In this document: positions 25,834 to 54,107 of the stretch, in pieces
Layout of the letters: each line of letters starts with the position of its first letter
Position numbering within the stretch: position 1 is the first letter of the stretch
Made by a program: the position numbers and the translations under genes
The notes under the pieces: generated by a model
Databases searched by the model: none
Told to the model about the DNA's origin: nothing
Seen by the model: only the letters and a program-made list of their open reading frames with translations
Assembly: GCA_914767715.1 (NCBI GenBank)
Contig: OU612069.1
Location: forward strand, 17,107,387-17,171,386
Length of the DNA stretch: 64,000 nucleotides
Direction of reading: 5' to 3'
Source of the DNA: Membranipora membranacea
Taxonomy: Eukaryota > Bryozoa > Gymnolaemata > Cheilostomatida > Membraniporidae

Positions 25834-26513
25834 TGCTAAACCTACTACTCTACATGTTTCAGCAGTAGCTAGCAGCTATCAAGTAGTTCAAATCAAAGAT
25901 GAGAGAGAGAGACACTAAAACCAATCATCATTTCCTAACCAATGAGAAGGAATTCATTGTCCTAACTACTAATATAAAGTAAACTATCATAAATAAATCA
26001 TAAGGCAGTGCATATCAAACCATCCACTCCAGTGTCCATCAATCATAAACATATGCACAGCTACCTTTACAACAAGGAAGTATGTCAACTTTAGCCTACA
26101 ATGCCATTCTAATAGTAGGGCGGTTGATCTTGGAAATTGATAGTCAAATTACACGAATGTCAGTATTGTAACTTCAGATGCCCTCACTTCTATCAATTAA
26201 ATCAACAATGAGTAGCTAGTAATAGTACTCAAAATCTAGCCAGTCAGTCTATTAGTATAATATGATTGAGTGAGTGATATATTCATGAGGCCTCGCAAAC
26301 TTACTTTCTTCTGTTTGACATGGGTAAAGCATGACTGTAACAAGTGCATCATACTAGCATGTGCTCATGACAAATCAGTTGCGGCAATGCTTTAACTGAA
26401 GAATTGGATACTGCGGATAAATTACTGTGCCAAGTGACAGTGGATTGTGTGCAAATGAATGTTTGTTGATCTTATGTTATCCAGGATCCAGTCCAAGTTA
26501 ATTTGGATTGCAT

Positions 26514-26569
26514 TTTATTGATAAAGAAAAAAGAAAAGGTTATGAAAATTACTCTGAAATGAATTTATT
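26514..26569 (-). terminator. Candidate polyadenylation signals of the MULE-Ulp1 gene
   Basis: AATAAA occurs on the minus strand at 26564-26569, 23 bases past the TAA, and again at 26514-26519. Either could direct cleavage. The first is close to the stop codon, so the second may be the better candidate. Confidence 0.4.
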
Positions 26570-26591
26570 AAAATTTTAGCATTCTTATGTT

Positions 26592-27028
26592 TTAGAAAAA
26601 AACACCACAATCTAGCAGTGAGTGTAAATCATCACACATTTCCTCGTACAGTGTGCCTGTAGGGTCAGGTAACCTTACAACATTATCAAGCACCACGGTA
26701 AATTTACTGATTTTATAATAATGTATAAAATATTTTAGAGCAGGTGAAATGAGATAGAGTGAATTGTAGGCTTTAGTGGCCATACCAAATTTCTCGTAGT
26801 CACTGGACTTTATTTGTATAAAAGCACTAGTTGACGTATTTACTTTCTTCCACCAGATGTTGCTGTGGTCATTGAGGAACACGTACAACGAGGCCTCCTC
26901 TTGAATGTTAAGAACAAGCTCACCATCCTGTGTCTTTCCTCCTTTTAATTCATCCAAAGGGTCGATGATCCTGTTTGACCTCATTCTCAACCAATCTATT
27001 GCTTCATGCCTGTTGACACTTTCACTGG
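26592..27028 (-). other. Exon 27: unrecognised C-terminal region
   Basis: This last and largest exon encodes 145 codons including TAA (residues about 1066-1210). It is open throughout, with WLRMRSNRIIDPLDELKGG near the start and LPDPTGTLYEEMCDDLHSLL near the end. I do not recognise a domain. The composition is mixed and looks globular, without low-complexity stretches or membrane segments. Confidence 0.7.
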
Positions 27029-30000
27029 CTAAAACAGAATTTGCAAAAATTGTATTGGTAATCACTTCAGCGTGTTTTTATGTAAATACCAACAGAGTTG
27101 TCTGTATCCATATGCATCAAATTTGCTGGGTATCTTTCTTGCTTGTCTTGAAATAAACCATGACTAAAGTTGTTGCTTGATTCAATCTCGGAGGATTTCG
27201 CCAGGTGCAACACAAAACAGCTTATGGATCAAGTTAGACCATGTTTATATGTGCAAGTGTCAGGGGCAAAATTATATTTAAGACTGTTTGCCTTTATTAT
27301 TGTTAAAGTGCTGACCCTAACATAGTTTACCAAGTAAAACAAAAACGATGTAATTTAATGTAGCTAAGACTATTTGATACAACTATTACTTTCCAATGTT
27401 GCCAATGTAACCAATAGCATAGATATTAAAATTGGCAGCAAACAAACTTCATACACCCTTATTCCTTTTTACAACTCTTACCTCTCAGTAGTGAGTCTTT
27501 ATTTTCAACAGCTGCTGTTGTACTCATTTTCCTAAACACTGGTTCTTTTTCTGTTTCTGCTAGAATCACAAAATACAGGGATGATTTACATGATATGTTA
27601 AGAGTGTCTTACGCTCCACAACAAGCTTTTACTGACACCATGCTTAAGGCGCAATGAGCATCAAAGGTATGTGAGTTCTGTCCACTCTACATTGGGACTG
27701 ATACCAAGTAGAGTTTTCATATCCTAACAACTGCTAACGATGTTTTATTATTCCATTGATTGACATGTTAGAATTATTGGAGTAAGATGCGAAGACAATA
27801 GGGTAAATATTCCATGTTGACTGTTGAGATTTCATATACAACCTTGTTAAATTCCAGATAAAGATGCATTACATGATAAGCTGCACAATGTACCAATCAC
27901 CTACATGTATATGTATATTGTAACACGAGAAGAAGGTCTATTGACAACATTATGTTGCAGCTGTCATGGAGGATATTCGATACTCACAACTGGTAGGAAG
28001 ACATTGCTATTGCAAAATTACACATAAATCTCAAGATGTGTATTGTGAGGGTTACTATTGGTTTTCTTTTTCTGCTATAGCTGAGTTAGAGGAACCAACT
28101 GGTACCACTTGGGATATCTAGGCATTCTAATATCACACACTCGGATATAAGCATTTTATATCAGAATTTCACCATAATGTAATTAATTTCAGTGGATCCC
28201 CACATGTACACATTCTTTTTATCTTAGGAAATCCATGCTTAGTGACGATTGTCAACTTACTGTTGTGGTTCATCAGTTTGTGTTTGATGTGTTGCCGAAA
28301 CAAAGTCACTGAGTCACTAATTGGAATACCATATACTCCGCTTGGTTCCCGGTCTGTATACTGCTCAGCAATCTAGAAAAATTAAGTAAGTTTTATCAAT
28401 ATATACAGCTAACAGGCCTCATCATATAAAACATTGAGAAACTATGCATATATAATAGTAGATATTAGCTAGGCTATTTTGAGGGTTAGCTAGAACCAGT
28501 GTTTGATACCTAAGGTTTGGGTCTATATAGAGTATTAAGGCACAGGCCTGCTTGCTGTCACTTTCACTGGTTGAAGTGTGTGCAAAAGTGCAATATTTCC
28601 CTCTCTGCATAGTAACACCTCTATTTTTTCTTACCTCAATGATTAACAAGATAGCTGGGGGTTCCCCTATAGGAGGGGGGCGACTAATACGCCGTTTCCT
28701 GGTTAACCCCCAATAAGTTAGAAATAAACATTTAAGTAAGTACAGTAAGTTGCTGGAGAACAGCATGGGCAGGGCAAGAACTTTATAGGAGGAAATTCGG
28801 CCTCGATACTTTAGAAAAGGCTGAAAATTTAGCACCAACCACACATGCACCCAAGTCACCTTTCACACACTGATAAATATAGTAACAAAAGGTAGTATTT
28901 TAGGGCGGGAGGGTGGGAATTGTGAAAAGACGACTTGTCACTTCAGTTGTCTAGAATGAATGGGATGAGAAAAACCCGCGAACTGAGGAGATAAGTAAAT
29001 TTGCATAAACTCGCTAAAAGGTGTGCCGCGGTACAGAATAATGCTTAAGGTAAGATAAGATAACTACAAAATAAGAGGCTCAGTGGCCAGGGTAAGCTAG
29101 TAAATTTTACCAGCTATAACACAGTACTGTGTTATTAAATAACTGAGCCTTGTCACATTGCTCAAGAAAAAATGAGTTTTTTAGGTGTGGAAAACTCTGC
29201 ATTTTTTCTTACCTCAATGATTAACAAGATAGGAGGGGGGCGACTAATACGCCGTTTCCTGGTTAACCCCCAATAAGTTAGAAATAAACATTTAAGTAAG
29301 TACAGTAAGTTGCTGGAGAACAGCATGGGCAGGGCAAGAACTTTATAGGAGGAGATTTGGCCTCGATACTTTAGAAAAGGCTGAAAATTTAGCACCAAAG
29401 GAGAGGAGTTTATAACGGAGCTCCCTTTCGCCAAATACACAGCCCAGTAAAGTATCTGTATCAGTTAAATGACAAGAGGTTTTATCCTTTGACCAATGCA
29501 CATCTTCGAACAGAAGGGCATGGGAGCTAGCTGTGGTGCAAAACTCTGATGGTCGAAGAAACCAATAAAAAGCTACTGCCATCATGCAGCGAAATTGGCA
29601 CGCAACTCTAGGAACTCTGCCTTCTTTTGTCATGAACAAGGACCAACTCATATTATTTCCATGCGTCTCTTGGTTTTCAGATAGCATTGTGTCAATCACC
29701 TTTATCACATGAAGCCCACATGATGTACCGTCTAACTGTTTCACAGTATCAAGAGTTTTGAATTGCCACTGCTGAAAAAGACCATGTCTTTTACTCCACT
29801 CTCTACAAGGTACAGGAAATTCATTGAAATAAAACATAGATTATGAATATGAACATGAATGACAATATAATAATGTGAGGAACAGAGTTGAATGTGGCAG
29901 TCTATTGGAAATTTCTGAAAAGTTGGTGCACAAAACATTCATGCTCCACGTTTTTGGGCTCAAATTCATGGATATATCTAAAAGTTTTGCAATTAAGCTG

Positions 30001-33000
30001 AATGATCCAAATAATTTATGCACTGTTGGTCACATTCTGGAAATCTCAACACTTTTATAACTATCTGTGTCTTACAGTTACAACCATATTCAACCCCTCA
30101 CATATCAATTTAAATTATCTACAGTGTTTAACAACCATCAAACGATATATCAGTAATGTGAGGCTGGGAAAAAAAGGATAAGTAATGCATGCGTATATAA
30201 TGTAATGCTTTTGAGTTTTGAGGCAAATTAGATTTGGCTTCGATCTGTTGAAACTAAATTAGAAGGCCTACTACAAATACTCTTTGAGTTAAATTATGTA
30301 AAAATCGTGAGTTTCTGTTCCAAATTCCAAGGCCACTATACCTCTTTGTCAACTAACTATGTTATTTTCCTGTTACTGCATTTGCGACTGGGTTTTTAAT
30401 TAACAATTGACATACTCTTTTAGATTTTGTGGGGATGATGAAGTCTTTAGCGAGTCCGCAATAAATACTGTACGATTTGCCACGTCCATTATCTACAAAA
30501 AGGATCAGGTAAATAGCTACATGTTTTCGCATTTGATGCCAACATTATACACTAAGCATGTGTCGTGAGGTGATTGACATTGCAATTCCACAAACAACCA
30601 GTGCACTTGCTGTTCACTGTGAGGCAATCTGTTGATCAAATAGATGTGACTTGTGATCCCGTCTTGTGGTAATGCTACTTGATAGATTGGTAACAACACT
30701 TTTTTTGCCACAAAAATACTTATGCATGTGTTGTAGATGGTTTGGATGCTAAGTTAAGGCTGAAATCTACTGTACTGTATTATCTATTATGTATAAACAT
30801 AAACTTACTCCTAAATAGAAATGCTGAATGGCAGCAACATGCCTCGGCACTAGTACTGTGTGATACTGTGTGTACTGTTTGAAACCTTCTAGCATTTCAT
30901 TGACTTTGAGCGCCAATATCTAAAAAAAAGTGGATAAATTGTCTTACAATGAGTGCTATGAAATGATGTTTTTACCCATAGTATTCAAAGGCCCTACACA
31001 TTCCCTTAGTTCAGCAAATTATACAGTGTTCTACATGCATAGATTTCATTGCAGAATCTCAGTGAGCTCATTGGCACAAAAGTAATATAAGAGAGTCCTA
31101 TACTGCTCTAAAACTTACCTTGTCGTCTGTCGCTGTTATTATACTGAGACTGGCATCAATGATCTGTAAAAGGGTAAGATAATTTGATGTCCAATCTCTT
31201 TTTTTGATTGTAGAATTATAACTTATGTTACCTGGATATCTCAGGAAAGGAAATATTTTAAGGACTACAGCTTAAACTACTGCTGCCACTCAGGCAAATT
31301 TGAGCTCTTTGAATTCTGTAGAGCTCCAAGATAATCAATTGAGCCTTTACTCTCAGAATTGTCACCCGATGGGCAAATAATTTGCATTAACTGATCTTCA
31401 AAATCAGGGTATGAAATAAACGCACTAGGTGATGATTGTCCACTAGTGATACGTACGCTAGCATGTTTTGCCCATTAGGTGACAATGCTGAGATTGTAGC
31501 CTTTTAGTATTAATTTTGCACTATACAGAATTAGAAAGCACACATTTGCCTGTGTGGCAGCAGTGGTTTAAGCGGAAAATTGGAAAATTCTCAATTGAGA
31601 TAGGGTTTTTTTATTTCTGAATTGGTTCTATCGGACACTTTAAGTAAAAAGATTTGAGAAATCTGAAGGTATCTAAAGCCTAAATGCTGCTCAATTTTGG
31701 CCAATTATCTCATGACAAAGTTTCAGCGTTATGCTAAGAATCTTGCCCGAGAAGGGCAGGCTTGGGTTCATCAGCCTCTGGACTTAAGCTATTTGACAAA
31801 TCTATTCTTTTAAGTTTCAGTGGAACTATGGTGTCGATGTTATAAGACTTTTTAATTTGATAAATTAAAAAGTCTTTCATAAAAACTTGACAGATGGCTT
31901 TATTGTGGGACTCCTGAAAAAGCTATTTTGTCATAATTTTCAATTGCCTCCTAGTATAGACTATTGCAACAAAGAAGACAGCACTCGCACAGAAGCTCTG
32001 AAAATAGTCTACTGAATATAATAAATTGTAAATGATACAATCAATATTTTTATCATACGAGAACTTTATTGGAATTCAAACTCCACTAACTTGCTAAATG
32101 GGATGTCCCCCTGGTGTGAGTTGCCACAAACGTTGATTTGCAGCAGTAATTTACCTGAATTTCAAGAGTGTAAAATCACCATTGTTTGGTTCATTTGGAA
32201 AGAGCAATTCTCGGTCGGGATTTCTATCTGATACCCTGAATATGTTTATCTTGTAGGGTAGTGTATGTGATTGAGAATAATGTGATGGGATATTCCACTG
32301 CACTACTATGCTATAGATGCAGTTGTACTTACAGTGTCAGTTATAAGCTCCTGGGAGCATAGTGTATCAATGTCAGACTGATATATGCTGATTCCGTTTA
32401 TTCGAGTCAAAATAGGTGAGGTTATAACTCTGCTTGTGGTAGCTGAATCCTGCAGTCACAAAAACACAAAAAAATTACTGTAGCTTATGATTCTTCGAGT
32501 AGTGACCTTATGACTGCATCCCCCTCCAGGTTATCAAGGGCTCAATTACTTGATTGGCTCAGCTCTGTTACTGTATTACTATAGAAACCACTATAATACA
32601 TAATTACACTTTCACATATATCAGAGAGATAGTTCTCATACCTATGTGGGGGCGATCAAAAGTAGTTTATCATACAAAGTCAAAACCATTTAAAAGGCTA
32701 GCATTCTTACCCATCAAATACTTGTTAATATAACAGATATTTGCTCATTCAATATATTTAAGTTCAAACATTTGGTCCAGTCAGGACAAGGAAATCACCG
32801 CTTAGAGGATAAATTCTCCTTAAAAGTGACAACCTATGTACTATGATGGTGTGCAAGCGCCCTACCCAGGTGTTAGAATTCACTTTCTTTTAAGAGGGAT
32901 AGTGCGTATAGGGATGATTTTACATTGTCCTAACATCTGTCAGTTGAAAATTTATATCAAATTGGTTTCTATTGCGATGCTCACCATACTTATTCTCTTC

Positions 33001-36000
33001 AGCGATTGAAAGAACCTCCCTTAAGTATGGATCAAGACAAATGCAATACCACCATTAATACACTCTTGTTGCAGGAAACTATTAGAATAGAGATGAGTTG
33101 GAAGAGGATGAGAGAGAAGGCTGCAATATGGTAACTATATAAATATCTATATTCCCTATTTCTAACACATTGGGAGTCCAGAGTGATCTAATGGTTACAG
33201 TTATGGACATGCGATCTTTGTGGATCAGGTTCAATTCCTGGCACTGGTAGTTATTCCTGATTTGGTGCTGGTACACAGCTCTTCTTAGCCAGGTCCTTAC
33301 AGAATGGGATTAAAAGCACATGCAGTAAAAAGAACACATAGGCGTCTTTGATATAAAGGGTAGCGGGGTTTTGGCAGGTTTGGGCATAGGGCGCGACAAG
33401 AGTATTATTGATCCATGTAATCAAGAGAGGATAACTCTTCCTGCTTTAAAGACGATTAATGCATTGAATTATTTGTGGTTCTTACCATGATGATTCGCTT
33501 CATGCCTTTTCTGATATCCATAATGTTTTGTTCTTGTAGGGAATATCCCACCTTTTCCGGTAGGCCTTTCTCAGACTTGCAATAATCCATGCAATACTGT
33601 TTATAAAAAAATACCACTGTTGTGTTAAAAACAAGTTTTGCTCATAATATACATGGACATATATATTCCTGCTCTCCTCTAGTATAGATATATATATGTG
33701 TATATATATATATATATAACCAGAAGAGTACAAGAATTTCAGGAGGAAAAGTTTGCCGTTTTGCACAGGCTTGGAATTTATAGCTAGCCAACATTTACTC
33801 AACCTGTAGTCAAACTAAACTCTAGCTAATGTCCGCTGATACACATTCATTGGTGAATAAAGTAGGATTTGTTGAATGGAATGGGCTGAGTGGGGTGGAA
33901 TTGCAATCCAATATCAGGCCATCAGTGCCACGGCGGTGATTGACTCAAATCCCATTGGCATTCTTGCTTGGTTGTTCAAATCCCTAGTACCATTTGGCTA
34001 TCAAATGCCAGTATTGAACAAAACATAAGGCTATTCCATATACATGAAAGATAATCTATACACATACATGATGGCGGATAGGCTGATCAATTTTCAGATA
34101 TTTTTAAAATTAAGTAAAAAAGTTAAGTTACAATTAGTACATGGCGTAAATGTTCGTAAGGAAACTGAGCTACTTCCAATTTGGCTACTACAGTTGCATC
34201 AGAACATGAGGTGCCAAAACTGCAGTTTAAATGTCTTAAATCTTTTCAAGACTATCATACCGCTAAGGTGTTGCGACTAATATACTTATGTGTATATATC
34301 CCTTCAAATTACAAAGCCTGGAATATTTATATTTTAAAAAACAGGAAAATTTTATTTGGTCAGCAGAGACCTGGTAGGTAACGTCCAGTCAACTTGTCCA
34401 TATTTGATGTCTGAATGAACCATAACTTTCATTTATCAAACAAAAGTTATACTGAAATTGCAAATAAATACATACCTGGACTATGTATATGCCTGAAGCG
34501 TTATTATCAAGCTGTGTGGCACCCGGGATCTGCCTTGTGACAGTGAATCCCCCAAATTTTACATCATCCAACAGCAATTGCCTAGAAAAGATGTAGTAAT
34601 GCACATAGATGCAATGGAAGTCATTACAAAATCATACTCCAAACCTTGAAGTTGTTCTACAGTATGAAAATATTTCAATTCTGAATGGTATTGGGTAACT
34701 CTGTTGAATCTTCATCACTCAGTGCTGTTTTGAGTTCGGACTGTGATAAATATATTAACTTACCTTTTCACATTACCCAGTGATCCATCGTTATCTCTTG
34801 GGTGTAGGTAGTAGACCATACAAGCTCGTACATCGATCACCTAAGATAAAATTTAAACTTTGTTGTATTTTAAGTCCTAGTTGAGGATCTTTTAGTAATA
34901 CTAAAACACTTAACTTAGCTAATAGTCAGAAAACTCAGGTAAACTGCAATATTTTATCAAATATTTTCCTTCCTCCCCCTCCTCCTCTTCAACCCTAAGT
35001 GCTGCTGTTTGTTGCTATACTGTCCATAACGTCTTAATCAATTCTCAATTCCAATTGAGAAGTAGTAAAGCAACTTACCAGTAAGTGATAGGAGCCTTTA
35101 GAGGAGTCGTACCTTGGCACAAATAAGACATCTTCACCAGTACTCAATGATACAGGAGAGTCCACAGCAACACACTTAAACATGAAGAAATGGTTATAAC
35201 AATTTCTTATATTTAACTCATGTGTTGCTCAAATTTTATATCAAATGTGGTTTCAGTAAATAAGTTGATATACTACAAACATGCAAGCACAGGAAAATCC
35301 TTTTCTCCAATCAGATCTGTAAAATACATCGATGTTTATTGCAGGAGCAGTCTTTTTGCACTGCGCACTTTAAACAATCTGTGAAATTGGTGTCTTGCCT
35401 GATCTTATTTCAATTTCCAAAAACTTAACGTGATATATCGCCTTTTCAGTTTCTCAGGAACTACTTGTCCCATCTCAAAAATTTTTTCACTGACACATTG
35501 GCAGAAGTCTGACTTAAGTTTAATATCGCAATTTTTTTTAAACTAAAATACATTGAAAACATATAGGCAGCAATGGGCAAAATGATGCAGTAAATTACGT
35601 TATGCAAAAGCGTGATGAAAATCTATGCAGTATTACATGCAAAGCACATTGTGTACAACAATGGATCACCGTTATTTGGGTTGCATGTATTGAGGGGTCA
35701 GAAATGGCCCTTTAACTATTGCAAAAATCAATTTCAAGTCTCGAAGACAGGAGGCCTAAAATCATAAGGTTGCACTAAAATGTGACTCCTCCAGTAAGTG
35801 CCACGCCTCCTCTTTATGGTGAAAGCATAAACTAATCAAATACCTCAAATACAAGGCACAGAGGGCTCAATTTAAAAAGGGTACTTTTTGCCCCAAAATG
35901 AACTTCCAGAGGTCACTGCAACTCAAATATTTGGGAGGTTTCAACTGTGAAAATAACTATAAGACATGATCACCAATACAATATTAAAAAAGTGTTAAAA

Positions 36001-39000
36001 AGCGATATATCACGTTAAATACAATGACTTGAGTAGGTGTGATGTATCAACATTACAAAAATTGCTCTGTTAAATTTAAAGCATGTGTTAGGTTCAAAGT
36101 TATGAAGATATCCAAGTCTAGTTACGCCTACCTTTTTGGTGTAGCCTGTTTTAGTTCTGTCAAGGGTAAGGTTAATGCAACTCTCTACAACCTGTAAAGA
36201 TCACAATATTCAATTGATCCCTAGCTTAATCTCAAAACAAAACTGTACTTACACCTGACCTCAACTTATACCTGTCTTAAACAGTCAAATTGAGCCAAAA
36301 TACCTCAACGGAAAAGATTTTTTATTTCCTATCTGACACATTGAGTTCATTTTTCTTACAAAACCAATACAACCAGATAAACCAAACTGCTCTAGGCAAT
36401 CTGAAATGTAGTCACTGCCTTGGTTGTAGTATATAACAAAAATGGTCAACATCATCTTAAGAAAAAATATTAGGCTGAGCCCTCCAGACTCTTTCCCCCT
36501 TTCCCATTTTCAGCATATGGTCTTGGAACTAAATCATAGGGTTGACTATATGATCAATTTCGTCTCAAGGTATAAGCCAATTTGAGCTGTCCTGTGTCAA
36601 GTTTTGAAGCATCTAGCACGAGACATCATCTGATGATTTTAATTTTCTACATTTTAATTTATATTGTTCTATTTAACTTTCCATAAGTTGTTAATGCCAA
36701 CTTCTCAAATTCCCAAAAGAAGCTTACATGGATAAAGTCCTCAGAAAAATTTTAAATAAATCAACCTCGCAAATTATCAAATAATGAAAAAGTTGTTTGA
36801 TTTATATTCTGTTGATATTTTATACTTGTGGGGTAATGAGCATCAGTAACACTTCATATACATAATATCCAAATAGAAAATGCAATAAAAAACTTACTGC
36901 CGGGGAAATCTCTTTGTACGGATCATCTATGGAGTCAAGATCTGACTGGAGGATTGCACAGTTTTTTATAACTCCTATTGTCTCCTCGTCACCACCTGTA
37001 ACATCAGCAATAGTATTTTAGTGAACACTCAAAATTTGGATTCACAAAATATAAACTTTTATTCGTATTAAAATTTTTTTGTGATTTGTATTTTCTTATT
37101 CCATCAAATTGCCATGTGATGTGTGCTTTCAAGCCTCAGTTTTCACCTACGGCTTGTATTGCAATGGCAGCGACATTTTAGGAACTGTCAAAATACACAA
37201 GTATTAGGAATACTATGTCAATATTCATGCCAGAACCTGGTAAACCCGTTAGACGTGTTTATTTTGTTAAAAGTTGAGTACGTTTAGCAGCAAAATATAT
37301 CTTCAACTAAGTATAAGAGTTTACACCTACCTGCTTTTCCCTGAATTCTGTCCTTGTACTGAGCAGATGTGGTATACTCTTCAAGCTGTAAGGTAGCAGA
37401 TAAAAGGTTCTTCAAAATTCTATTTCAGCAAGAATTATTCTCTTCTCTGGCATCATTTTAATTTTTTATCATATGATTTTTTATCAAAGGAGTGTCTTTT
37501 CATTGATACATAACTCATTGATATATTGTTATTGATATACTTTTCATTGACATATTGTCAGCCTAGTAATAACATATTATTCATTGGTAGTCAGGCTTTA
37601 CCTTTGGCATCTTCGGCAGGAACCGCTGTGCCTTCTTGTCCTTTCTCCTAATGAATGGGCAAATCTTTTTCCTTGTGGCAGAGCCTGCAAATATAAAAAA
37701 AAATCCATGGTTTATGACACGTAAGTGTAGTGGAGCAAGAGAAACACACTAACTTGTTTTTTTGGGTCCCCAAAGATCTTTACTTCCTGAACATTCTTGA
37801 AGGCTGCAGTTTTCTCTGTTGCCTCTCAACTCTTCCTCTATGTATTGAAAAAAGCTGCGATTATCTCTTTTACTCAGTATTCCCTATTTTTCCTATTTCT
37901 CTATGAGGTACATTAAGTTATTTTTCATGATAGGTGCAGTAAAAACATTTTGAAAACGTCCACATGACTAATTCTTACTTGTGAATTTAGTAGTTTCCAT
38001 GCAGTCTTTGCTATCCATATTTGATGTCACTGCCTGGTCATTCTCAAGGGAGGCTGTCCCTGTCAAATACATACAACCATAATTATTTGCCAAATCTGTA
38101 TGAGCATGTAGTATTGATACGCAAAACACATATTATGAAATGCCGATGTCAACCCATGCTTCCAAATCCAATCAAAACTGTTTACTTACAAACTAGGCTG
38201 ATTTTTGACAGTTTTGATCAAAATTTGCTTACTAGGAGCACTGATGGCGGAGAAATTTACTGCTTGAGCAAGCAAAAATTAAAGTCAAATTTGAAATAAT
38301 ATAATGGTAACGTGAATGAGAATAATTAACAACCTTGTACATGCAGATCTAGTGTGTTGTATGATGTTTCAGGAAGGGTGTTGGTAGTTAGAGCCAGATG
38401 GATTAGATGTTTACACCAAGTTCCGTGGTACTGGGAGTCAGGACAGTCACAGGATACAGCCTCAAGGTTAGTAGTGTAAGATTTCTGGGACTGTTGGGTC
38501 TGCAATTTGCGCATAGCCTTTCTGATGAAGTTCCTCGGTCTACTGCAGAATATTGGCTTGACCTGATCATTGTACCGCTTGACACATGACATGCTCCCTC
38601 TTTGTGTAGCTTTGTACCTATTGGAACCAAAAAATGAGCCTTGTTGAAGAATTGCATGCATGGATCTCCGTCTATATTATACTATATTCTTGAGACATCA
38701 GCTTACAAGCGGATCATCTTTTTTACCTAGCATGGGATACAGGCCAAACAGTGGAGGTCTGTGTTTTTCACAATGGTAAATTGGTAAGTTGGGTGAGACA
38801 TGCCTTAAGCTCTCTCCTCATAGGCCTCCCCTCCGCGCTTGACATTATTTCATGATGAGAAATGATGTTGCGCGCTGCTTGTGGCCTTGCGCACATTATT
38901 GGTACTGGTTAGAGAGAGAATATACTTCCCGAGTGTTAGTGTTTAGCCTGCTTACCTTTTTTCCCTGTTTGGCAACAGATCTTTATGGATCCTCTTAACA

Positions 39001-42000
39001 ATCACCAAGGATGGAGATTGGTGGCTGCCGCTGATTCCTAGGTCAGATTTTACAGTTCTGTTTAGACGTTCGAGGCCATTGTTGGTCAACACATCATTAA
39101 GCTCTCTGGGTTTATTATAGAATACTCTACTCCATTTCTGTAAAAGATATCCGACTTGATCAACATGTGAAAGCATAATTCATTTACATCCAAATCAGGT
39201 ATAATGCACCCTTTAGGGTAGCCTGTCTAAACAACACTTGTCAGGGAGGGGGGCAAAGCTTGTCAATTCCATAAGCTGTCAAAAAGAGAAGACAACTCCT
39301 ATCAATAAGATTCTTCTAAGGGTTTTCATCATTGTGGTTAGTTCTCCCGTGTAAAAATCAAGATGATGAGGAAAGAAGGAACTGAGCATTAACATGGAAA
39401 CCCCTATTGGAAAGAGTTTTTCTCGAACCAAGTAAGAGTTGACAAAGTTTGACAAGATTAATCTTAGTGGAACTAAGTAAAGCTATGGTAGTATTGTATC
39501 TCAAATATTGGGCAACTAGGAAATGTAGCGAGTCTCTGCAACCACCCTTAGAAAGGGCAGCAGATTCAAGTTTACCTCTTTTTTACGCATCCAGTACTCA
39601 AGGTAGTCCTGTATCCTACCAAAGTAGGGCATGTCCTTCAGCGTCCGCATCGCTAAGTCATAGTCTTCCTTCTTCACCGACAGAGCCAACCTGCTCATAA
39701 GCTGCAATGCCTCTGCTGCCTCTGCTTCATTCAGCATTGATTTAAACTTTGTTTGCCAGTTCCGTTTGGCATGGAAGAGGCAGATGATCTGCTGTGCATC
39801 TGAAATTTTAAAGGTTGATAGCCTTAGCATCTAATTTTATAAAAGGAAAGTTAACGCTTCCCACCTTTCTGGCAAACGCCATGAAAATAGAAACATCAAA
39901 CAAAGAGGTGGCAATATACATGTATGTTTATATGAAGCACTCTGTTTGAGACTGAATTCTTTTAATCATTTTCACCCTGATAACAAAATTTGACTAAGAT
40001 TAGGCCTCGCATTATGGACTTACTTCATTTAGCTTATTTGGAAAAAAGATCTACCAAGGGCTGTCATGTACCCAGGTATCATATGTTAAACCAGAAAATT
40101 AATGTATAGCATTTGTTGGATCGTTACACTAACCTGGGAAGACCTGTTTTGCTGCTTTTTGGTAGGCGGCACTGTCATCCATCATGATGAAATTAGGAGA
40201 AAAGTCACCTATCTCTTTTAGGTGATGCAACGCTGCCTTTACGGTGTCTGCTGTCTCATCCTTGATGATGGCCATCATCACCGGCTCGTAACCGCAGTTA
40301 GTCTGCACTGCCACCATGAATAACATACTGTTCTCACAGTCGATGTTATATGTGGCATCAATAAATATAGTCTCACCATATCTTGATGCCAGATGTTTGG
40401 TGAAATCTGTCATAATGTAATGAGTGTTCTCTCCAGATTCTGATAATACAGAGGGATCCACTCTGTAAAAAGAAGTGTATTGCCTTTATACATAAAGTTG
40501 TGTGCCGTTTGCACAAGTAGGCTAATCAAGCTATGTGCGGACTTTGTGCCTTGATCTGCTTGAAATGCCAGCTTCCACTCTGAAACCATGCAGTGTAACT
40601 AGGTTTTGGTCACAGGTCAATTGAACAATAATAGTCACATTGTGTCTCCTCTGACACAGGCATGAAACGATGCAATTAAAATGGGCTGGTGTGGTTCCTA
40701 AGATTGTGGATCAATACATTTAGATTGACCAAATGTATACCAGAAATTGTAACCATCCCAAATCTATATTGTAGAACTCATGATTTCTCAGCGACAAACT
40801 ACCAATGGTGAATCACCTTTTTATTCAATCAACGACTGGCTGGGCACGAAAGTTCATGGAGACTCACGGTATTACTATGTTCACTTCTTGCAAAGGTATC
40901 ATAATCAACACAGTTTCTGAGTTGATGCCAAATAATTGAGAACCGGGCTGACTTAAAATTTGATCGGAATATCTTAATTAAAAAAACCCTAAATAAATAA
41001 AGCCGATAAGTTCGTCCTTTTTGACGGACATTACCCGACACCGTTTACAGATGAGAAATTATTACCTGTTTAAATCCAAAATATTTCCTAGGGCCAGATA
41101 TTTTCCTGATTTTTATCAACTCAACTTGCCGCTTGTATAAAAAACAAAATGGAATCCAAATAATATGTGCTCAGTTAACTAGAATGCTCTATACCCATAG
41201 ACTTGTTATACTATTATATATGTATATATATTAAGTCTATGGCTATACCTCTGGTCAGTGTTCGAAATACAAAATTTAGATTCTCATTCCAATGTAACAC
41301 TACTTTACCTGTGTCTGTTGTATCTTATCAATGACGATATCCTCTCAACAGACGGAGAAAATCTTTGACTTTTAACTGATGCGTTGTAATCATTGTCGAT
41401 GAGTGTTTTCATGTCCCTAGTCTTTTCTACCCCTTTATTTACAAGCTCTCTTATCCTCCTAGACACAACTTTATCGGTTGGCAGTGCCAGGTCATTCAGC
41501 TACAAAAACAATGTGTAGCCAGTGAACTTTCAATAACATCCAATATATGATAAAATGAATAATATGGGTATTCTAATGACAACTCTGGGGGCGGGGGGGG
41601 ATTTTCAGGCACCAGCTAAAACATCTGTATACACTGCATTCAAGTGTGTAACATAATTTTATTTCTTCTGGAGCTTTTCATTGCATCAATGAGACCTTGA
41701 TCTCTGCTCATCTGTCCACTTCGTTTGCTTGCATAGTGGTGAACCATTTTTGATCTATGACTTAGCAATTTACAAAATATTTGTTTATTTTTGTTGTGAT
41801 AGATATTCTGCTGAACCAAGGGAGCATAACATTACACTATTCATACGCAGTACAAGATTTACTCACCTCGCCTGTGTCATGCCCGGAATGCTCTCCTTTA
41901 AATACAACACAAAACTGGCGCTCAAAGTGAGGTTGATTGTCAAGCTTGAAAGTGCTTCGGACTTTGTTGACATTGTGCTGGGTCATATCTGCTATCTGAG

Positions 42001-45000
42001 AAAAAATTATTGCAAAAATCAACAACTCAATATATTATAGCAGTTTGTTGAGCTTGAATTTGGGTCCCCTCTCTCCATTTGGGTACTGGTAAACATACAC
42101 CGCATTGGAAAAAAGTGTCACAGCTGTATACTAAAAACTCTTTCTGATTCAGCATTTGCATCAATGAAAATTTCAAGGGGCGAGGTTCTTCTAATATGTA
42201 GAGATTGAATTCTGATTCATTTCAATTTAGTGACAAAGTACCTGAAAATTTGTCGTCAAAACAGTTGGAAATTGATATAAATGAGCACCCAAATTATTTC
42301 TCAAACTATGTCATCCTGTTTTCAATGATGTAGACGCTGAATCAAATAGAATTTGTTCTACAATGAGAAATTTTCGAGATAAACCCTTTTCAGCTTCAAT
42401 TTGCTATGAAGATTAACTAATTGGAGAGAGGTCAACTCCGACAACAGACTCCAATTTTTGAGCTTACAAAACTGTCCACCAACTGAGGTAGATTCTTCAC
42501 AGCAAGATTTGTCATCTTAATTTAGTAGACAGAGCATTTTCTATGTCAATATGCTGGTCCCATCCCCATCCAGTCACACTGTATTTTATGAGTATGATAT
42601 GCACAAACAACAAGCAAAATATTCTCTGTAACAATAAAACATAATATCTCCCATGTTTATGATTATTTAAATATTCATTGGTGATGTTAACATTGGACAA
42701 GCATTGATATCTAAAATTCAAAGAGAAATGTTCTTTTTTAGATGTTTTGCCTAGTCCAACACAATATATCTCAATATTATGAAGAATCAGCAACTATTCA
42801 ACTTGTTTCGCCATATAACAGAATGAAGATAAATGATAATGGTAAGTGATACTAACCACAACGTGGTTTTTGACATATTCGGAGTAGTAATAAATGGGAC
42901 GACATGTTAAAACTTTCCCAAGAACAAATTATGTATTGTGGCCCATAAATTCCAATAGCCTAGACTGCATATTGGGTGTCATTCAGCACACTGATTTCGA
43001 GATTACACTATTAGTATGTGTATCTCTGGTCGATAAAGCTTCTGTCGCAAATATTGAGCACCTACATTTGGCTGAAAGAGAGGACAACTTTAATTTTATC
43101 AAACAGACATGATCGAAACAGAATTACCTAGCTCTGCATTATTAGTTCTCTTTTCTGATCTTAGGCTAGCAATACACAGTTTCGATGTCACTTTTCTTAT
43201 CAAAAACATGTGCTGAATGCTCTTCTAAAACTGTTGAAAGGTGATATCAGATTTTCTAAATATAAATTAGAATATTTTAACAAAGAATGAGAAAATGATA
43301 AGTGTATATCCAAAAGTTTGGGTAATCATCTATACGTCTCCTAAATACTGAATTTCAGCTGCACTCAGGCTAAATGAATTAATTCACTCTCTATCGATCA
43401 GAGATATACATGCAATAGTATATCACGTGATCAGTGTGGTCATTCAGTGCATTCTGGGCTTTTTGACTAGTTGCTAGTCGTCCCTAGTCCCAAGCTCAAT
43501 TTTAGAGCTGCAAAATCAGGTTTATTCCAGACATGTCTCAATAGTTTCAGTGTCATGACTTAGGCTTGACTTTTGACAGTGGAATTTTCTAGTGAGTTTT
43601 AGGATTCTATTGATGAAGTAGGGTTGATATTCCCTTTCAGCAAATGGAATAAAAATGAAAAGCGATTTGCAAGAAAACAGTTTTACCACTGTTCACAACC
43701 CAGTTGATATCACAATAATTGATAAGCATACTAACACAGAGTAAGGATATACAGAGCAGGGACACTTCAATGATAGCTATAGTGCCTGTGGTTTGTGATT
43801 CACAGTTGGGAAATTGTGCACAGCTGGATGCCAAGAACTCAATATCTCTAGATGTTAGTTACAATGGGATTTTGCTTGAAGACATACCTACATATGATGG
43901 GTCATAATTAATTCTGTATTTACCCTAAAGACTGAGTTCCACCTTTTTTATGGTGTATAGCTTCAAGAACAGACATTTAAAAAAGTTGGAAATCAGAATT
44001 ATGGCCCATCATAAGTGTGCATGAAAGATCGCCATTGTAAGTTATATAATAAGTAAAATTGGCAGTTATCCAAATTGACGACCCCCCCCCCCCCCCCCCC
44101 GATCAAACAGTGATTTTTGCAGCTTTTAATTAAAAAACTTTTAGTTGCAGTCATGCTCAACTTACCTTATATTTAGTAAAAACTAGTCGCTCAGTTATCA
44201 TTGCCTTTGCCCTGCATCCTTGTTTTTTGGTGTTCTGAATGAAAAAGTGGCTTTCCTTTGGTCTGGGATGGTCTGAATTCTTCCGCTCCTGCACAAGAAT
44301 AGAGTTAGGCAATTTTTGTAGGGCAAGAAAGCAAACAATTCTGAAAGCAGTGGCAGATTAAATTAATATTTTGGTTGTCCCAATTCATCCCATCTTCATA
44401 TGATAGGAAAGCTGTTACTTCATGATATTCTTTCCTCCAGTTCAGTAGGCAGGCTAGTTTAACAAGATGTTTCAAGATATGATCATGCCCAGGTACACGT
44501 TTTTTTTTCCTAAAAATTTATGCTTGATCGCAGTAGGAAATTTTGAGAGTTATTTCCCTGTTTTTACTTCAAACTTGGTCGTCATATGTCATACGTCATA
44601 CATCATATTTCAATTGTTTTGGCACTGACAGTACAGTGATAGAGCATGACACTGCCAATCGATGTATTAGGAGATGGTCTAATGGCAATTGCTCATAGGC
44701 TTAGTAAGTAACTCACATACTCACACCTTTTTATGAGGTTATTTCCTAACCAGAGTATCCACAATTAATACAACTTGCTAAAGAATGACTGCAATTATAG
44801 TAATTGCCATAATAATCTGTTTCTTCACCAACAGCTATTGCCATAATAATGTTCTCATTTGAACTGGAAATTACCCTTAACTTTACAAAGTTGTACGTAC
44901 CATTCTCCTCTCCTTGATAGGCTTTTGCCTATCTACCCCTTGGGAGCAGTAGAGGAGCTTAGATCCCGCTTTGGCATACAGGAAATCATCTCCTGGCGCT

Positions 45001-46522
45001 CCCATAACCCGGTGTTTTCCTTCATAAACGACTATAAAACAAATAAAGGTATTCAAATTTGAGACTTTTGACTCCTATTTTAAGCCATGTACTGTTATCA
45101 TTTTTAATATCGTGGGCATCAGTTTTTAACACCTTTTTTTCACTACCTATAGTATGTTATAAAGTCAATCAATCAATAATGAAATTTAAGTTGGCTAATT
45201 TTACAATTCCTCTATCAGTTAAATCAGAATGGTGGATTTAATTATAGAAAATTAATTTTTAAGCCAGCCCGCCCAACGCGCAGTTTGTATATGTAGGCCT
45301 ACCTTAGGGCATGGATTTTTTTTTTGCGGAAAACAGTAGGTCATTATTGATATCGATGATTTCAATTAAACTTTAACTGAATGCTTAAAAACACCTTGAA
45401 AAATAATGAACAACCATTCATTTTCATCACCTCCCCTCCCAAGAATTATGTGGCATTTCAGTTCTTGTGGACTGCGAGCAATGAAATTCCAGGACTAAAT
45501 TTACTTTGCACTGCCTCCCTGCCTGCACTGCCTGGCCGGATCACTCAAGTGGCCCAAGTTATTTAATATGCAGCCTATTCCATTCATTAATCCATTGATA
45601 TCATGTAAATAATGATATTAGATTGATGAATGTTTATTGACATTGGCAATTTTGTAGGGTATGAATAGACAGTCAATCATCAACTCTATTCAACAGTATA
45701 GGGATCTGAAGCTTAGCAGCGAATTGTGTTAGCCAAGGGTCAAGAGTTATTGAAAATAATCGAAGAGTGTCAACAAACTAATTTGACTGAGGCCACATTT
45801 ACTCAAAATTTATTGGCCCCTACACTAATCTGTGATTTTCTCTTGTTCTGAGAACAGCAAGAGCTCCCTAGTCTTTTTCACCATGATATCCAGCTGTGTC
45901 TGCTGAAGCTTTATTAAATTGATCTCCCTCAGAAAAAACACATCATTGATATACAGGCATTAGGGTGTTGTTGTATAGATTAAAAGTGGAATATTTATGC
46001 CAGGGAGAATTCTCCCTGATCCAATCGACATGCACCAAATCATAACAAACAAAATCCACAGCCAGCCCTTAATGGCATTCGAGATGAAGATTGCGGCCAG
46101 AGATGGCATATCTAGGTTGACTGCTTTATGCTTTCGGTAATCTGCTTGTAAAACCCATTCAATTCAATTTTGAGGGCTCAAAACTGCTCCCTAGGCTTTG
46201 GCGGTCGGGGCTCAGCCCCGTACACCGTTTGTGGGGCTTACAGCATCCCCCAAACCCCCCAGCTGGGTTTGCCCGGGCGCTTTGCGCCCTCAATGTGCAG
46301 CTACGCTGCTGAGGATAGTAAAAGTTGGCAGGGTCACATTTAAAAGCTAGAAATCCCTCCCCCCCCCCGGCTTTGCAGCCACAGTACATGCTTGATAAGA
46401 AAAATACACTTACTTCCTTTGTTGAAAGATCCTATGTACTCATGTACAATAAATTTGACAAACTGATCAGTTTCATGTTGCTTGAGAAAAGCTTCAGCCT
46501 CCTCCAGTGTACGGTACATCAT
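26592..46522 (-). CDS. MULE transposase-SWIM-tandem Ulp1/SENP protease fusion protein, 27 exons
   Basis: Exons (minus strand): 46414-46522, 44901-45031, 44166-44288, 41867-41995, 41309-41499, 40134-40462, 39576-39799, 38956-39137, 38334-38617, 37979-38059, 37754-37837, 37602-37684, 37331-37385, 36898-36995, 36132-36191, 35079-35174, 34764-34840, 34476-34581, 33486-33596, 32333-32449, 31119-31163, 30809-30919, 30416-30492, 29700-29802, 28261-28372, 27482-27559 and 26592-27028. All have GT donors and AG acceptors, and phases close over 3633 nt (1210 residues). The start is the ATG-ATG at 46522, just after an in-frame TGA. Domain order: zinc-finger-like region (65-160), MULE DDE core (about 228-440), SWIM (529-543), Ulp1-like A with Ser808 (about 690-850), Ulp1-like B with Cys996 (about 865-1040), unknown tail (1040-1210). 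Function is inferred: a transposase-derived nuclear protein with deSUMOylase-like or other isopeptidase activity. Weakest points are the choice of exon 1 and the weak donor of exon 24 (gtgatt). Confidence 0.88.
28623..28838. repeat. Direct repeat, copy 1 (intron of the MULE-Ulp1 gene)
   Basis: About 200 bases are almost identical to 29201-29398, in the same orientation. This copy carries an extra 18 bases at about 28654-28671, which include a GGGG-tt-CCCC mini-palindrome. Both copies lie between exons 25 and 24. Confidence 0.9.
29201..29398. repeat. Direct repeat, copy 2
   Basis: This is the second copy of the repeat at 28623-28838, without the 18-base insert. It directly adjoins the recombinase-like fragment at 29400-29670, so both may belong to one decayed element. 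Confidence 0.9.
29400..29670 (-). pseudogene. Tyrosine-recombinase-like fragment in an intron
   Basis: The minus-strand frame reads MMAVAFYWFLRPSEFCTTAS then LLFEDVHWSKDKTSCHLTDT. The F-L-R-x-x-E-F motif and the following D-V and S-K-D pattern resemble the catalytic region of Crypton/Ngaro/DIRS tyrosine recombinases. Only a fragment remains and the SKTD-like motif is degenerate. It follows the weak donor of exon 24 in open frame, so a read-through transcript would add it to the Ulp1 protein. Confidence 0.45.
31842..31876. repeat. Small AT-rich perfect hairpin
   Basis: AAGACTTTTTAATTT and its exact complement flank a short loop (gataa region). It lies in an intron of the MULE-Ulp1 gene. Confidence 0.7.
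33173..33331 (+). mobile_element. tRNA-type SINE, family B, copy 2, in an intron
   Basis: A box GTGATCTAATGG (33183-33194), B box GGTTCAATTCC (about 33229-33239) and the body CTTAGCCAGGTCCTTACAG match the copy at 2690-2885. It lies in the intron between exons 20 and 19 of the MULE-Ulp1 gene. Confidence 0.7.
33486..36995 (-). other. Exons 14-19: Ulp1/SENP-like domain A, probable pseudoprotease
   Basis: Residues about 669-851. The layout follows a C48 (Ulp1) peptidase: an N-terminal LQSDLDSI helix region, then SYHLLVIDV with His751 at the catalytic His position, then VYYLHPRD where the usual catalytic D-S is not obvious, then TQLDNNASGIYIV. In active family members the last motif reads Q-x-D-x-x-S-C-G; here Gln802 is kept but the nucleophile position is Ser808. 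A Cys-to-Ser change at this place normally abolishes cysteine-protease activity, so I infer a binding or scaffold role. Domain assignment rests on motif order and on the clearer second copy downstream. Confidence 0.65.
38334..38617 (-). other. Exon 9: SWIM zinc finger
   Basis: The motif VSCDCPDSQYHGTWCKHLIHL gives C529-x-C531-x9-C541-x-H543, the C-x-C-x(n)-C-x-H pattern of SWIM domains. SWIM fingers commonly follow the MULE transposase core and are thought to bind DNA or protein. The residues before it (about 473-525) are basic, with an RPRNFIRKAMRKLQ stretch. The exon is closed by canonical splice signals on both sides. Confidence 0.88.
38956..40462 (-). other. Exons 6-8: MULE-type DDE transposase catalytic core
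   Basis: Residues 228-472. Exon 6 carries the first Asp in IFIDATYNID (D263) and the second in FIMMDDSAAYQKAAKQVFP (D323 or D324). Exon 7 has the C-x2-H motif CLFHAKRNW. Exon 8 has TNNGLERLNRTVK with the third acidic residue, E435. These are the hallmarks of the Mutator-like (MULE) RNase-H-fold transposase, and all three acidic positions are kept. The frame is open across the exon junctions without stops. Two introns split the catalytic core, which is unusual for an active element and suggests an old or domesticated gene. Confidence 0.9.
41867..45031 (-). other. Exons 2-4 of the MULE-Ulp1 gene: C2HH zinc-finger-like DNA-binding region
   Basis: Residues 37-164. The possible metal ligands are C65 (in LLYCSQG), C105 (in KKQGCRAKAM), H157 and H160 (in GEHSGHDTG). 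The spacing C-x39-C-x51-H-x2-H and the position in front of a MULE transposase resemble the WRKY/GCM1/FLYWCH-type fold used by MULE and FAR1-like proteins to bind DNA. The assignment is by motif and position only. A profile search could place it in FLYWCH, FAR1 or another subfamily. Confidence 0.6.
46195..46320. repeat. GC-rich mini-hairpin cluster in intron 1 of the MULE-Ulp1 gene
   Basis: Three short stems with 3-base loops follow one another: GGGGC-tca-GCCCC, GGGCGC-ttt-GCGCCC and GCAGC-tac-GCTGC. The GC content stands out sharply from the AT-rich flanks. No gene is recognised here. Confidence 0.75.
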
Positions 46523-48832
46523 TCAAATTTGCTAATGCGGACGTTGTAACAAGCACACCCTGAACTCATTTATTGAAGATTTAGAATGATCATACCACCC
46601 ATACACAGACCACCCATACATCAGACCACCCATATTCAGAACAACTGGTAGCTGAGTAAAAATACCTTCACCAGATGCAATGTTTATCAACATCAAGGTG
46701 TTACCAGAGACTATGGATATAGAGACCTTCCACTTGCGCATAAAATGCGAATAGCCAATCAGCGTTATTTAACGGTCACGCCCACTTCTGGTTTTAAAGT
46801 TAACGTCTGCTGCCTCAAACAGCAATGGCTTTCTCAATGAAATTTCAGGTTTTTCACCTGAGTTATTTGTGACAAATAACCACAATCTTGATGACAAAAC
46901 CAGATCAGACAACAACAAAGTCACAACCAACTTGTTATTGCATTCTTAGCCAGAGTTGAACATTACACATATATTTGTAAGAAAGTAAGGGGGGAGGAGG
47001 CAGTAAAATCCATCATAGTTGACCACTGTGGTTAATGATGACCTGACATATAAGGATAGGTGCTGTGATGAGTTGTTTATCATCTGTGAGGACAAGGGGA
47101 TTCCTTTTACTAATTCCTTTAGTAAGAGTGATTCTTTATGGACCAAATTATCACTAACACTTTGATAAAAATCCTTGCCCATATTATTTCTTCTTTTCTG
47201 AATTGTTCACTTGGAATGAAAGTAGTTCCATCAAGGAATGAGCGAATTAGGAACGATACCTCAGGCAGGTCACACTCTCGCAGCATGTAACAATCAAATA
47301 GTGATTTTGGCAGAAAGACCCCCTGATGATTAGTGGCTCACAATAGAATTTTAATGTGTGATAAAGAAATTTATTCACATTTCATTTTCCTTGAAACATT
47401 TGTAATTATTGCACAGTAACTTCAAACTAAAAAAATTATTATTATTACAAAATTAAAATCTTTCATTTCAGGCTATAGAATGATGTGAAAACCGTAAGGA
47501 CTGCAGGCTACTAAAGAGTGATACTGAGTTATAAACATAGTTGAGCTACGCTGAAGATTGATTATTTAGGAGATCATCATCAAACTCTAAAGGTGAATGT
47601 AGTTGATCGCACATGTCTTCATGCTGGAAACCTGGGGGGGGGGACCTATTATGAGGTCATCCGGGATCTTAGCAGACTAGCACATTATCGGAACTGTAAA
47701 ATTTAGACCGAGTTTGCGAAAAGCAGCAATGGTTGAATAAATTACGTTCTTTCAAGTGAAGCACTCTGACCTTAAAACTACATAATACTTAGCCTATTTC
47801 ATTTCATTCATTATGTAAATGAAAATATTAGATGATGTATGTATTAACATTGAGGTGTTACTAAATCTTGCACTGGAAATTTTTAGACTATGTTTCTATA
47901 TAAATGCTGCAACGGACAGACTGTTACACATAATGATGCCTGAAAAAAGGCCTTTCAACTGACAGTCATCTAGATACCATTTTTCTCTCACAGACTGTTG
48001 GGGACATGTAAACCATTATCAAGAGTAATAACTAGTGCACTCAGTAGCTGTGTCATTCTCTAGGGATGGTGCCCAATGGAAACCATTATCCACAATATCG
48101 ATAATAATTCTTTGTTGTTTTTAGAATCTCCAAATTACTGTCATAGCTACCATCATCAGCTAAGTGCTTCGAATCGATTATCATATTTGACTAAGATATA
48201 TCTCAGCTCATCTCATCTCAGAACATCATGCATGCTTTCTTCTACCTACACTGGATTACCTAACAGAGATTGCGGATGTACTCGAGGTATTTGGCTAATA
48301 TTTATGCATAAGCTCTTTAGTTAAGTGAGCTCTTTGGCAGAAGAGAAGAATGCAGTCATTTGATTGTCAAAGTTTGGTATTCTTGGTACTGACAAACCAT
48401 AATGTTGAGTTTTGCTGCCTCGACAGTTTAGACTATTAGCTTAAGTTTAGCTCATTGAACTGTTTGGTCTAATTTATCCATTATGAAGGGTTGTCCTTTC
48501 AGATTACAAAATTGATGACGTGATTAATCTTCCGCTGCATTTTGATCTAGGCAATTTTAGACGAAGATGTCTCAGTTCTTCATTTACTGTTTCGATGTTT
48601 TAGGCATTTGCTATGGGTGTTACGTCATGGACACTCACAAGATACCAGATATACCATTTACAATAATAAGCACGAGATTAAGTAAGGTAAGCAGGCTGTC
48701 GACCAACTTGTGTCAACGCTATATTGACCGCACAGTTCTGAATTCTCAGGACAAATAGATTGAAAGATGCTGCCTTGGTACCTCAAATGTCATCCCTGCT
48801 TGTTGTTGGTAAAGAAATTGCGGTTCAATGAG
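46523..48832. other. Upstream region of the MULE-Ulp1 gene; no gene recognised
   Basis: The promoter of the minus-strand gene should lie at the start of this stretch, but no defined element is visible. Short runs of G (47634-47643) occur. No terminal inverted repeat matching sequence beyond 26.5 kb was seen. Confidence 0.4.
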
Positions 48833-50165: not shown

Positions 50166-50169
50166 GATT

Positions 50170-53990: not shown

Positions 53991-54107
53991 CAAGCTTTCA
54001 TTTTCTGATTAGAAAAGCTATTAAAGAAGATAACTCCGTCACCGCCAAAGTCGGGTGATCTTCTGGCTGCGTACATACAGTATCTGATTGAGTGAAGAGA
54101 GCACATC

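Follow-up and report, generated by a model that had tools for sequence, protein, structure and literature searches.

A probable, structurally intact Mutator-like DNA transposon with a predicted 28-exon transposase and Ulp1 gene in the bryozoan Membranipora membranacea

The element and its boundaries

Here we describe a locus in a stretch of 64,000 nucleotides (the window) from the bryozoan Membranipora membranacea (GenBank assembly GCA_914767715.1, contig OU612069.1, positions 17,107,387 to 17,171,386 of the forward strand), which lies on chromosome (contig) 5 (C5) at 17.107-17.171 Mb in a genome searched over 339.3 Mb and 18 contigs. The locus is very probably a structurally intact Mutator-like DNA transposon (Mutator-like element, MULE) of 28.8 kb with one predicted 28-exon gene, whose product joins a FAR1/ALS2CR8-like region, a MULE DDE domain, a SWIM finger, a pseudo-Ulp1 domain and an Ulp1 domain. 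The gene appears to be part of a Mutator-type transposon rather than a tamed host gene, and the element is best read, on sequence grounds, as a low-copy and potentially autonomous MULE with 27 introns. The features are collected in Table 1.

The element is real and well bounded. Sequence of its left flank recurs as a repeat at six further places, which all lie on chromosome 5 in the interval 16.5-17.4 Mb. Two of these, C5:16.734 and C5:17.340 Mb, were read as empty-site paralogues, and both fit exactly, save for insertions and deletions further out. At both empty sites, the last nine bases of the left flank, which ends at 25315, coincide with the first nine of the right flank, which starts at 54072; these nine, TACATACAG, are single-copy there (C5:16734510-16734518 and C5:17339970-17339978) and flank the window element on both sides. 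This overlap thus bounds the element at 25316-54071, and a 9-bp duplication, the usual length within the 8-11 bp expected of MULE insertions, is shown for the insertion in the window. An end near 46945, where one copy stops, was ruled out, since 46703-47114 is a separate repeat and the empty sites put the end at 54071. The two inverted ends, GGTAGACCGAAAATCACCCGATTTTGGC and CGCAGCCAGAAGATCACCCGACTTTGGC, are alike at 22 of 28 positions, a length chosen after inspection, and two of 2,000,000 random window pairs were equally good. An earlier note on this DNA, which dealt with 26592-46522, had seen no terminal inverted repeats; short and imperfect ones do exist outside that interval, at 25316 and 54071.

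The same ends recur elsewhere in the genome. Four other copies hold the left-end stretch, three on chromosome 5 and one at C8:12.866 Mb; in three of them it stops at window position 25313-25316, and in the fourth (18.87 Mb) the end is present with a small deletion behind it. Since the 18.87 and 18.96 Mb copies have the same flank, the four stand for three further insertion sites, which have different flanks. The right end recurs exactly at 54071 at C6:15247840 (90% over 144 bp) and C10:14275745 (98% over 87 bp), where the flanks are unrelated, and in a diverged form at C2:2503201. In addition, the end core, with at most two mismatches, was listed at seven places in 339 Mb, six of them known ends of the window element and its copies and the seventh at C10:13695655, while the reversed control gave none. 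A MULE-type DDE transposase, the 9-bp duplication, inverted ends common to the copies and multiple copies at dispersed sites, by which membership among the MULEs is judged, were all found. Segmental duplication or an assembly artefact might be invoked in place of transposition, given that several copies lie on chromosome 5 and that the flank common to the 18.87 and 18.96 Mb copies means that duplication produced at least one of the extra copies; however, other sites combine identical end points with different flanks, and the empty sites reveal the 9-bp duplication, which makes this explanation very improbable.

The predicted gene

In a manually built model, the gene runs on the minus strand from an ATG at 46522 to a stop at 26592, with 28 exons (3,651 nt; 1,216 codons plus the stop) that join in phase and without an internal stop, so that the open chain claimed in the earlier note holds. 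With a stop frequency of 0.0646 per triplet in the introns, an open run of 1,216 codons would arise by chance with P ~6e-36, a value that overstates the case because it ignores the freedom in choosing exons. The 27 introns measure 69-2,170 nt each (median 438, total 16,280 nt), and their canonical splice signals, also claimed before, are borne out, all 27 donors being GT (GTAAGT in nine) and 26 of the 27 acceptors YAG. The former count of 27 exons and 1210 codons needs correction: the additional exon is probably an 18-nt microexon (30609-30592) carrying the catalytic His, and, as it accounts for the six extra codons, it would be exactly the one missing from the 27-exon model. Its placement is the sole one found that keeps the phase between exons 22 and 24. 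A longer exon at 30698-30592 (LLPIYQ...HWLF) was ruled out for breaking the phase with exon 22, and so was an exon near 40579, which has no donor and no frame.

When the window was compared by BLASTN with nine regions of the genome, introns as well as exons matched, at 88-96%, in four copies (C5:27.576-27.588, C5:18.871-18.875, C5:18.963-18.967 and C1:22.307-22.318 Mb), all of which are internally deleted or truncated; in the other five the match is confined to part of exon 6 and its edges, or to short repeats. Over 29 exon placements in these four close copies, 55 of 57 splice dinucleotides are kept, a count that leaves out three exon-6 placements of distant copies, and at a divergence of ~3-4% this gives mild support for the exon structure. 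Exons 1, 4, 5 and 20 are covered by no copy and exon 6 by the three distant copies only. The microexon keeps its HW and AG/GT in the C5:27.58 Mb copy.

Among the Pfam families, the spliced protein matches MULE (PF10551) at 2.3e-12 with 47.6 bits (cut-off 27.6), ZSWIM1-3_RNaseH-like at 9.3e-11, ALS2CR8 at 2.7e-9, Transposase_mut at 2.3e-7 and SWIM at 5.4e-5, with DDE_Tnp_ISL3 just under the cut-off (1.1e-4). The candidate DDE positions D263, D323 and E435, which we take to be the catalytic ones, are all present, in agreement with what had been stated before. The C-terminal 145 residues, in exon 28, are 91-95% conserved between copies and have no Pfam match. Past exon 25, the frame runs on over 29346-29699 of the minus strand, where a piece of a tyrosine recombinase (FLRPSEF) may be made out by eye; it has no Pfam match.

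It is likely, and consistent with the DNA, that the transposase and the protease are joined in a single spliced protein. Alternatively, the element may hold two adjacent genes, one for the transposase (exons 1-9 or so) and one for the protease (exons 10 or 14 to 28), as in several plant MULEs described in the sections of PMC2528002 cited here, where the two are distinct units that at times point in opposite directions. In the bryozoan element, however, both lie on the same strand, the phase is unbroken across exons 9-14, and the AG/GT of exons 10-14 are kept in the C1 copy, and two genes are thus rather unlikely.

The pair of Ulp1-like domains

The second Ulp1 domain reaches Peptidase_C48 just below the cut-off, at 0.0029 in the whole protein and 0.00053 as a separate piece (20.3 bits versus 20.7). 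It keeps His-Asp-Gln-Cys as H945, D961, Q996 and C1002, with H945 on the manually placed microexon, an assignment based on the motifs of the C48 family. Compared with the sequences in PDB, this region gave no match to a C48 enzyme, the best hit (E 0.53, another fold) being at chance level. The first Ulp1-like domain has no C48 match in Pfam, and none among the PDB sequences (best E 0.15, chance level); its kinship to Ulp1 follows from direct alignment to the second domain, with a BLASTP E of 0.002 over part of the length and a local score of 79 versus 38.8 +/- 6.2 for shuffles, 0 of 2,000 of which scored as high, most of both domains being aligned. At the aligned catalytic positions it has H751, H766, Q802 and S808, in which Asp is replaced by His and Cys by Ser. 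S808 is Ser in all four readable copies and H766 is His in all three in-frame ones, where the window is counted in both, the C1 copy is frameshifted at H766, and two of the readable copies are duplicates of one insertion. The first domain is predicted from these residues to be a dead protease and, given that Ser and His are found in the copies, to have been dead already before the copies split. Of the two Ulp1 domains named in the earlier note, the second thus keeps the four catalytic residues and scores just under the C48 cut-off, and the first has neither a C48 match nor the catalytic Cys and Asp.

Copies in the genome and the origin of the gene

A search of the genome with the protein listed 42 matching stretches, the window's own included, and as the best 38 of 133 candidates were scored, the copy counts are lower bounds. 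Diverged relatives (46-68% identity) on C2, C3 and C7 are among the listed matches, and 32 PF10551 matches in the genome, again including the window, indicate that other MULE families are present. The copies decay through stops, frameshifts and deletions, and of the stretches read, none but the window copy combines both ends with a full set of exons. Pooled over three copies, the ratio of nonsynonymous to synonymous divergence (dN/dS) is 0.52, with changes at 24 of 519 synonymous and 48 of 1,950 nonsynonymous sites (Fisher p 0.012); by copy, the counts are 14/250 versus 22/962, 10/208 versus 17/758 and 0/62 versus 9/229. This calculation leaves out the gapped exons (22 in one copy; 9, 11 and 17 in another), five codons that are stops in a copy, incompletely covered exons and the 18.87 Mb copy. 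An exon-6 fragment with 70-80% protein identity was also seen at C5:26.76, 27.06, 27.56 and 27.87 Mb and at C7:22.99 and 24.83 Mb, and these six places have a similarly altered upstream stretch, as if the fragment had spread inside another repeat.

One of the two readings in the earlier note was a MULE-derived gene taken over by the host, and such domestication, in which the bryozoan would retain the gene for a function of its own while the ends survive by chance, was also our initial working reading. In its favour, the window copy is the only one of those read with all exons intact, introns are as numerous as in a host gene, and the pooled dN/dS is below 1. It was dropped after the introns were found to match elsewhere at 88-96% and the empty sites appeared. 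The Mutator-type ends are intact rather than lost, the 9-bp duplication and the fitting empty sites mark an insertion, further insertions carry the same ends, and the gene is not single-copy, its decayed, intron-bearing copies being alike in exon and intron divergence; moreover, the repeat that houses the insertion is local to chromosome 5, and neither of its two sister copies that were read contains the insertion. Domestication is accordingly improbable. The other option named in the earlier note, an intron-rich element, stands as regards the element itself, by virtue of the ends, the duplication, the empty sites and the copies. Many near-identical copies with inverted repeats, which had been named there as a finding that would speak against a host gene, are present in part: copies with common termini exist, and those found are few and 88-96% alike.

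A capture in the manner of Pack-MULEs, by which an intron-rich host gene of old MULE origin came to lie between MULE ends and was moved by a transposase from elsewhere, deserves similarly little credence. The part of PMC2528002 cited here reports plant transposons that have captured intron-containing sequence, the other MULE families of the genome could supply a transposase, so many introns are unusual in a transposon gene, and the diverged relatives on C2, C3 and C7 leave room for a host version. Nevertheless, the gene carried between the ends codes for a MULE transposase that has the three candidate DDE positions, and the 42 matches listed, with 38 of 133 candidates scored, include no evident intact host version.

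We tentatively propose, while rating it below an even chance, that the locus is a functional autonomous MULE, which moves as DNA together with its 27-intron gene and produces a single transposase-SWIM-pseudo-Ulp1-Ulp1 protein, the dead domain guiding the live, deSUMOylating one. Several points weigh against the main reading, a structurally intact MULE with one fused gene. In the stretches read, no further copy was seen to have both ends, and the left-end copies yielded no right end there, either by motif or by target-site duplication; the two right-end copies were read over 0.8 and 0.5 kb only. Furthermore, the 18.96 Mb copy, with 0 synonymous and 9 nonsynonymous changes, runs opposite to the pooled trend, and exon divergence (0.027-0.038) nearly equals that of non-coding sequence (0.032-0.045), both being 0.032 in the C5:27.58 Mb copy, so that constraint on the protein is weakly shown. 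The single spliced protein, too, is a prediction from the DNA. The equality of exon and non-coding divergence is as expected for copies drifting after insertion.

If the element works in the way of its family, the gene would be transcribed and its 27 introns spliced out, the N-terminal region and the SWIM finger would bind the terminal repeats, and the DDE domain would cut and re-insert the element at these repeats by cut-and-paste. The introns would survive in the copies because the element multiplies as DNA. The authors of PMC2836005, in the part cited here, suggest that Ulp1 and OTU domains act in transposition or repair, and we infer that Ulp1 may have such a role in the bryozoan element. 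At the insertion complex, the C-terminal Ulp1 domain would, with about even probability, strip either the transposase or host proteins for repair or silencing of SUMO or a related modifier; the first, predicted dead, domain might, again with chances about even, bind the modifier or hold the protease in place.

Comparison with known elements

ZSWIM1/ZSWIM3 and CARF (ALS2CR8) are vertebrate host genes, and the Pfam models named after them match the core and the N-terminus of the bryozoan transposase, whereas the matching bryozoan gene lies inside a mobile element. If the functional autonomous reading is true, host genes of the ZSWIM/CARF kind could have inherited introns from such animal MULEs, and the bryozoan element would be, to our knowledge, the most intron-rich cut-and-paste element.

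Mutator elements with Ulp1 are in print for plants (PMC2836005, PMC2528002) and, as stated in the part of PMC2836005 cited here, for hydra and lancelet (Repbase MuDR types); the latter are like the bryozoan element in combining a MULE transposase and Ulp1 in an animal DNA transposon. The KAONASHI/melon, rice and grapevine Ulp1 MULEs also have the transposase beside a C48 domain, but in the sections of PMC2528002 cited here they carry one Ulp domain in either orientation, whereas the bryozoan element has two in tandem, on the same strand and in phase with the transposase, the first predicted to be dead. Ginger1 resembles it in joining a DDE transposase to a C-terminal Ulp1, with 1-4 introns in some families; however, the Ginger1 transposase is Gypsy-integrase-like and not of the MULE type, and the table in the cited part of PMC2836005 gives at most four introns. 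The Phantom/Muta elements share the MULE DDE domain and a target-site duplication of 8-9 bp, but Muta1 has 3,198 bp, two exons and 145-bp ends (PMC5225508, in the part cited), as against 28.8 kb, 28 predicted exons and imperfect 28-bp ends in the bryozoan element.

A survey of 50 MULE lineages names SWIM, FAR1 and one OTU case, and the words 'Ulp1', 'protease', 'introns' and 'Bryozoa' do not occur in its main text (PMC6446971). Arthropod MULEs are given as 1.4-10.0 kb long, with terminal inverted repeats of 13-1193 bp (20-95 bp in most species), in the corresponding part of PMC13359780, and in the cited portion of a review of giant transposons, those above 20 kb, MULEs figure as small carriers (PMC6431247). 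Introns in transposon-derived host genes of vertebrates and mammals were taken as later gains, the parents being deemed intronless (PMC3369469). In the open-licence literature, searched by title and the start of the abstract, no report of a MULE with 27 introns or a double Ulp1 was found among the papers listed. Ulp1 in animal MULEs is therefore already in print, and the intron load, the size and the tandem of pseudo-protease and protease appear to be new in the literature searched. The locus adds a bryozoan and such a domain pair to the Ulp1-bearing MULEs, and it suggests that the intron load of a cut-and-paste element can equal that of an ordinary gene. If the gene is spliced as predicted, a count of introns is not enough to separate host genes from mobile ones, and domestication of such a gene could carry its introns along. 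An annotation pipeline could easily label the locus an ordinary multi-exon gene.

Table 1. Features of the element and its predicted gene (positions in the window)
Feature	Position	Strand	Basis or remark
Mutator-like element, 28,756 bp, later nested repeats included	25316..54071	- (gene strand)	empty-site paralogues, termini common to other copies
9-bp target-site duplication TACATACAG, left	25307..25315	.	comparison with empty sites
9-bp target-site duplication TACATACAG, right	54072..54080	.	comparison with empty sites
Left terminal inverted repeat, gene's 3' side	25316..25343	+	22/28 match to right end
Right terminal inverted repeat, gene's 5' side	54044..54071	-	match to left end; recurs at further sites
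Exon 1, start codon, FAR1/ALS2CR8-like N-terminal region	46414..46522	-	ATG directly after in-frame stop; manual model; covered by no copy
Exon 2, ALS2CR8-like	44901..45031	-	Pfam PF15299; splice sites kept in C5:27.58 Mb copy
Exon 3, ALS2CR8-like	44166..44288	-	manual model, Pfam, copy comparison
Exon 4, ALS2CR8-like	41867..41995	-	manual model, Pfam
Exon 5, ALS2CR8-like	41309..41499	-	manual model, Pfam
Exon 6, MULE DDE domain, D263 and D323	40134..40462	-	PF10551 2.3e-12
Exon 7, MULE domain, C..H motif	39576..39799	-	manual model, Pfam; splice sites kept in C1 copy
Exon 8, candidate third catalytic position E435 (NNGLERLN)	38956..39137	-	manual model, copy comparison
Exon 9, SWIM finger C529-x-C531...C541-x-H543	38334..38617	-	PF04434 5.4e-5
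Exon 10, linker	37979..38059	-	manual model, copy comparison
Exon 11, linker	37754..37837	-	manual model, copy comparison
Exon 12, linker	37602..37684	-	manual model, copy comparison
Exon 13, linker	37331..37385	-	manual model, copy comparison
Exon 14, first Ulp1-like domain begins	36898..36995	-	manual model, copy comparison, domain alignment
Exon 15, first Ulp1-like domain	36132..36191	-	manual model, copy comparison, domain alignment
Exon 16, first Ulp1-like domain, H751	35079..35174	-	copy comparison, domain alignment
Exon 17, first Ulp1-like domain, H766 replacing catalytic Asp	34764..34840	-	domain alignment
Exon 18, first Ulp1-like domain, Q802, S808 replacing catalytic Cys	34476..34581	-	Ser in 4/4 readable copies, window included
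Exon 19, first Ulp1-like domain ends	33486..33596	-	copy comparison, domain alignment
Exon 20, second Ulp1 domain begins	32333..32449	-	manual model; stretch missing from C5:27.58 Mb copy
Exon 21, second Ulp1 domain	31119..31163	-	manual model, copy comparison
Exon 22, second Ulp1 domain	30809..30919	-	manual model, copy comparison, domain alignment
Exon 23, 18-nt microexon QVHWLF with catalytic His H945, donor GTGGAA; weakest exon	30592..30609	-	phase, C5:27.58 Mb copy
Exon 24, second Ulp1 domain, D961	30416..30492	-	manual model, Pfam, copy comparison
Exon 25, second Ulp1 domain, Q996 and C1002	29700..29802	-	manual model, Pfam, copy comparison
Exon 26, second Ulp1 domain ends	28261..28372	-	manual model, copy comparison
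Exon 27	27482..27559	-	manual model, copy comparison
Exon 28, C-terminal region, stop codon	26592..27028	-	no Pfam match; 91-95% identical in 3 copies

Other features of the window

Nothing was recognised among the 22 open reading frames of at least 70 residues in 46.6-56.6 kb, which were inspected as a list without a family scan, and Rfam gave no match within the window. In the left-flank repeat, the minus strand of 24246-24755 has an open frame of 169 residues that looks by eye like the tail of a non-LTR (long terminal repeat) reverse transcriptase, with no Pfam match above chance. In the right flank, 54108-56545 is a stretch of ~2.4 kb between inverted repeats of 133 and 132 bp (90%), which is missing from both empty-site paralogues read and is probably a second, nested DNA transposon insertion. 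Part of a dispersed repeat occupies 46703-47114, within the MULE and immediately upstream of exon 1, and is partly common to the C5:27.58 Mb copy; among the best 40 of 210 candidate places scored (window included), most are 84-85% identical and the best others 94-97%. A perfect 45-bp hairpin at 25736-25833 belongs to a widely dispersed hairpin repeat, and 50180-51197, in the 5' part of the element, is a tandem array of a 208-bp unit with 4.9 copies and 97% matches.

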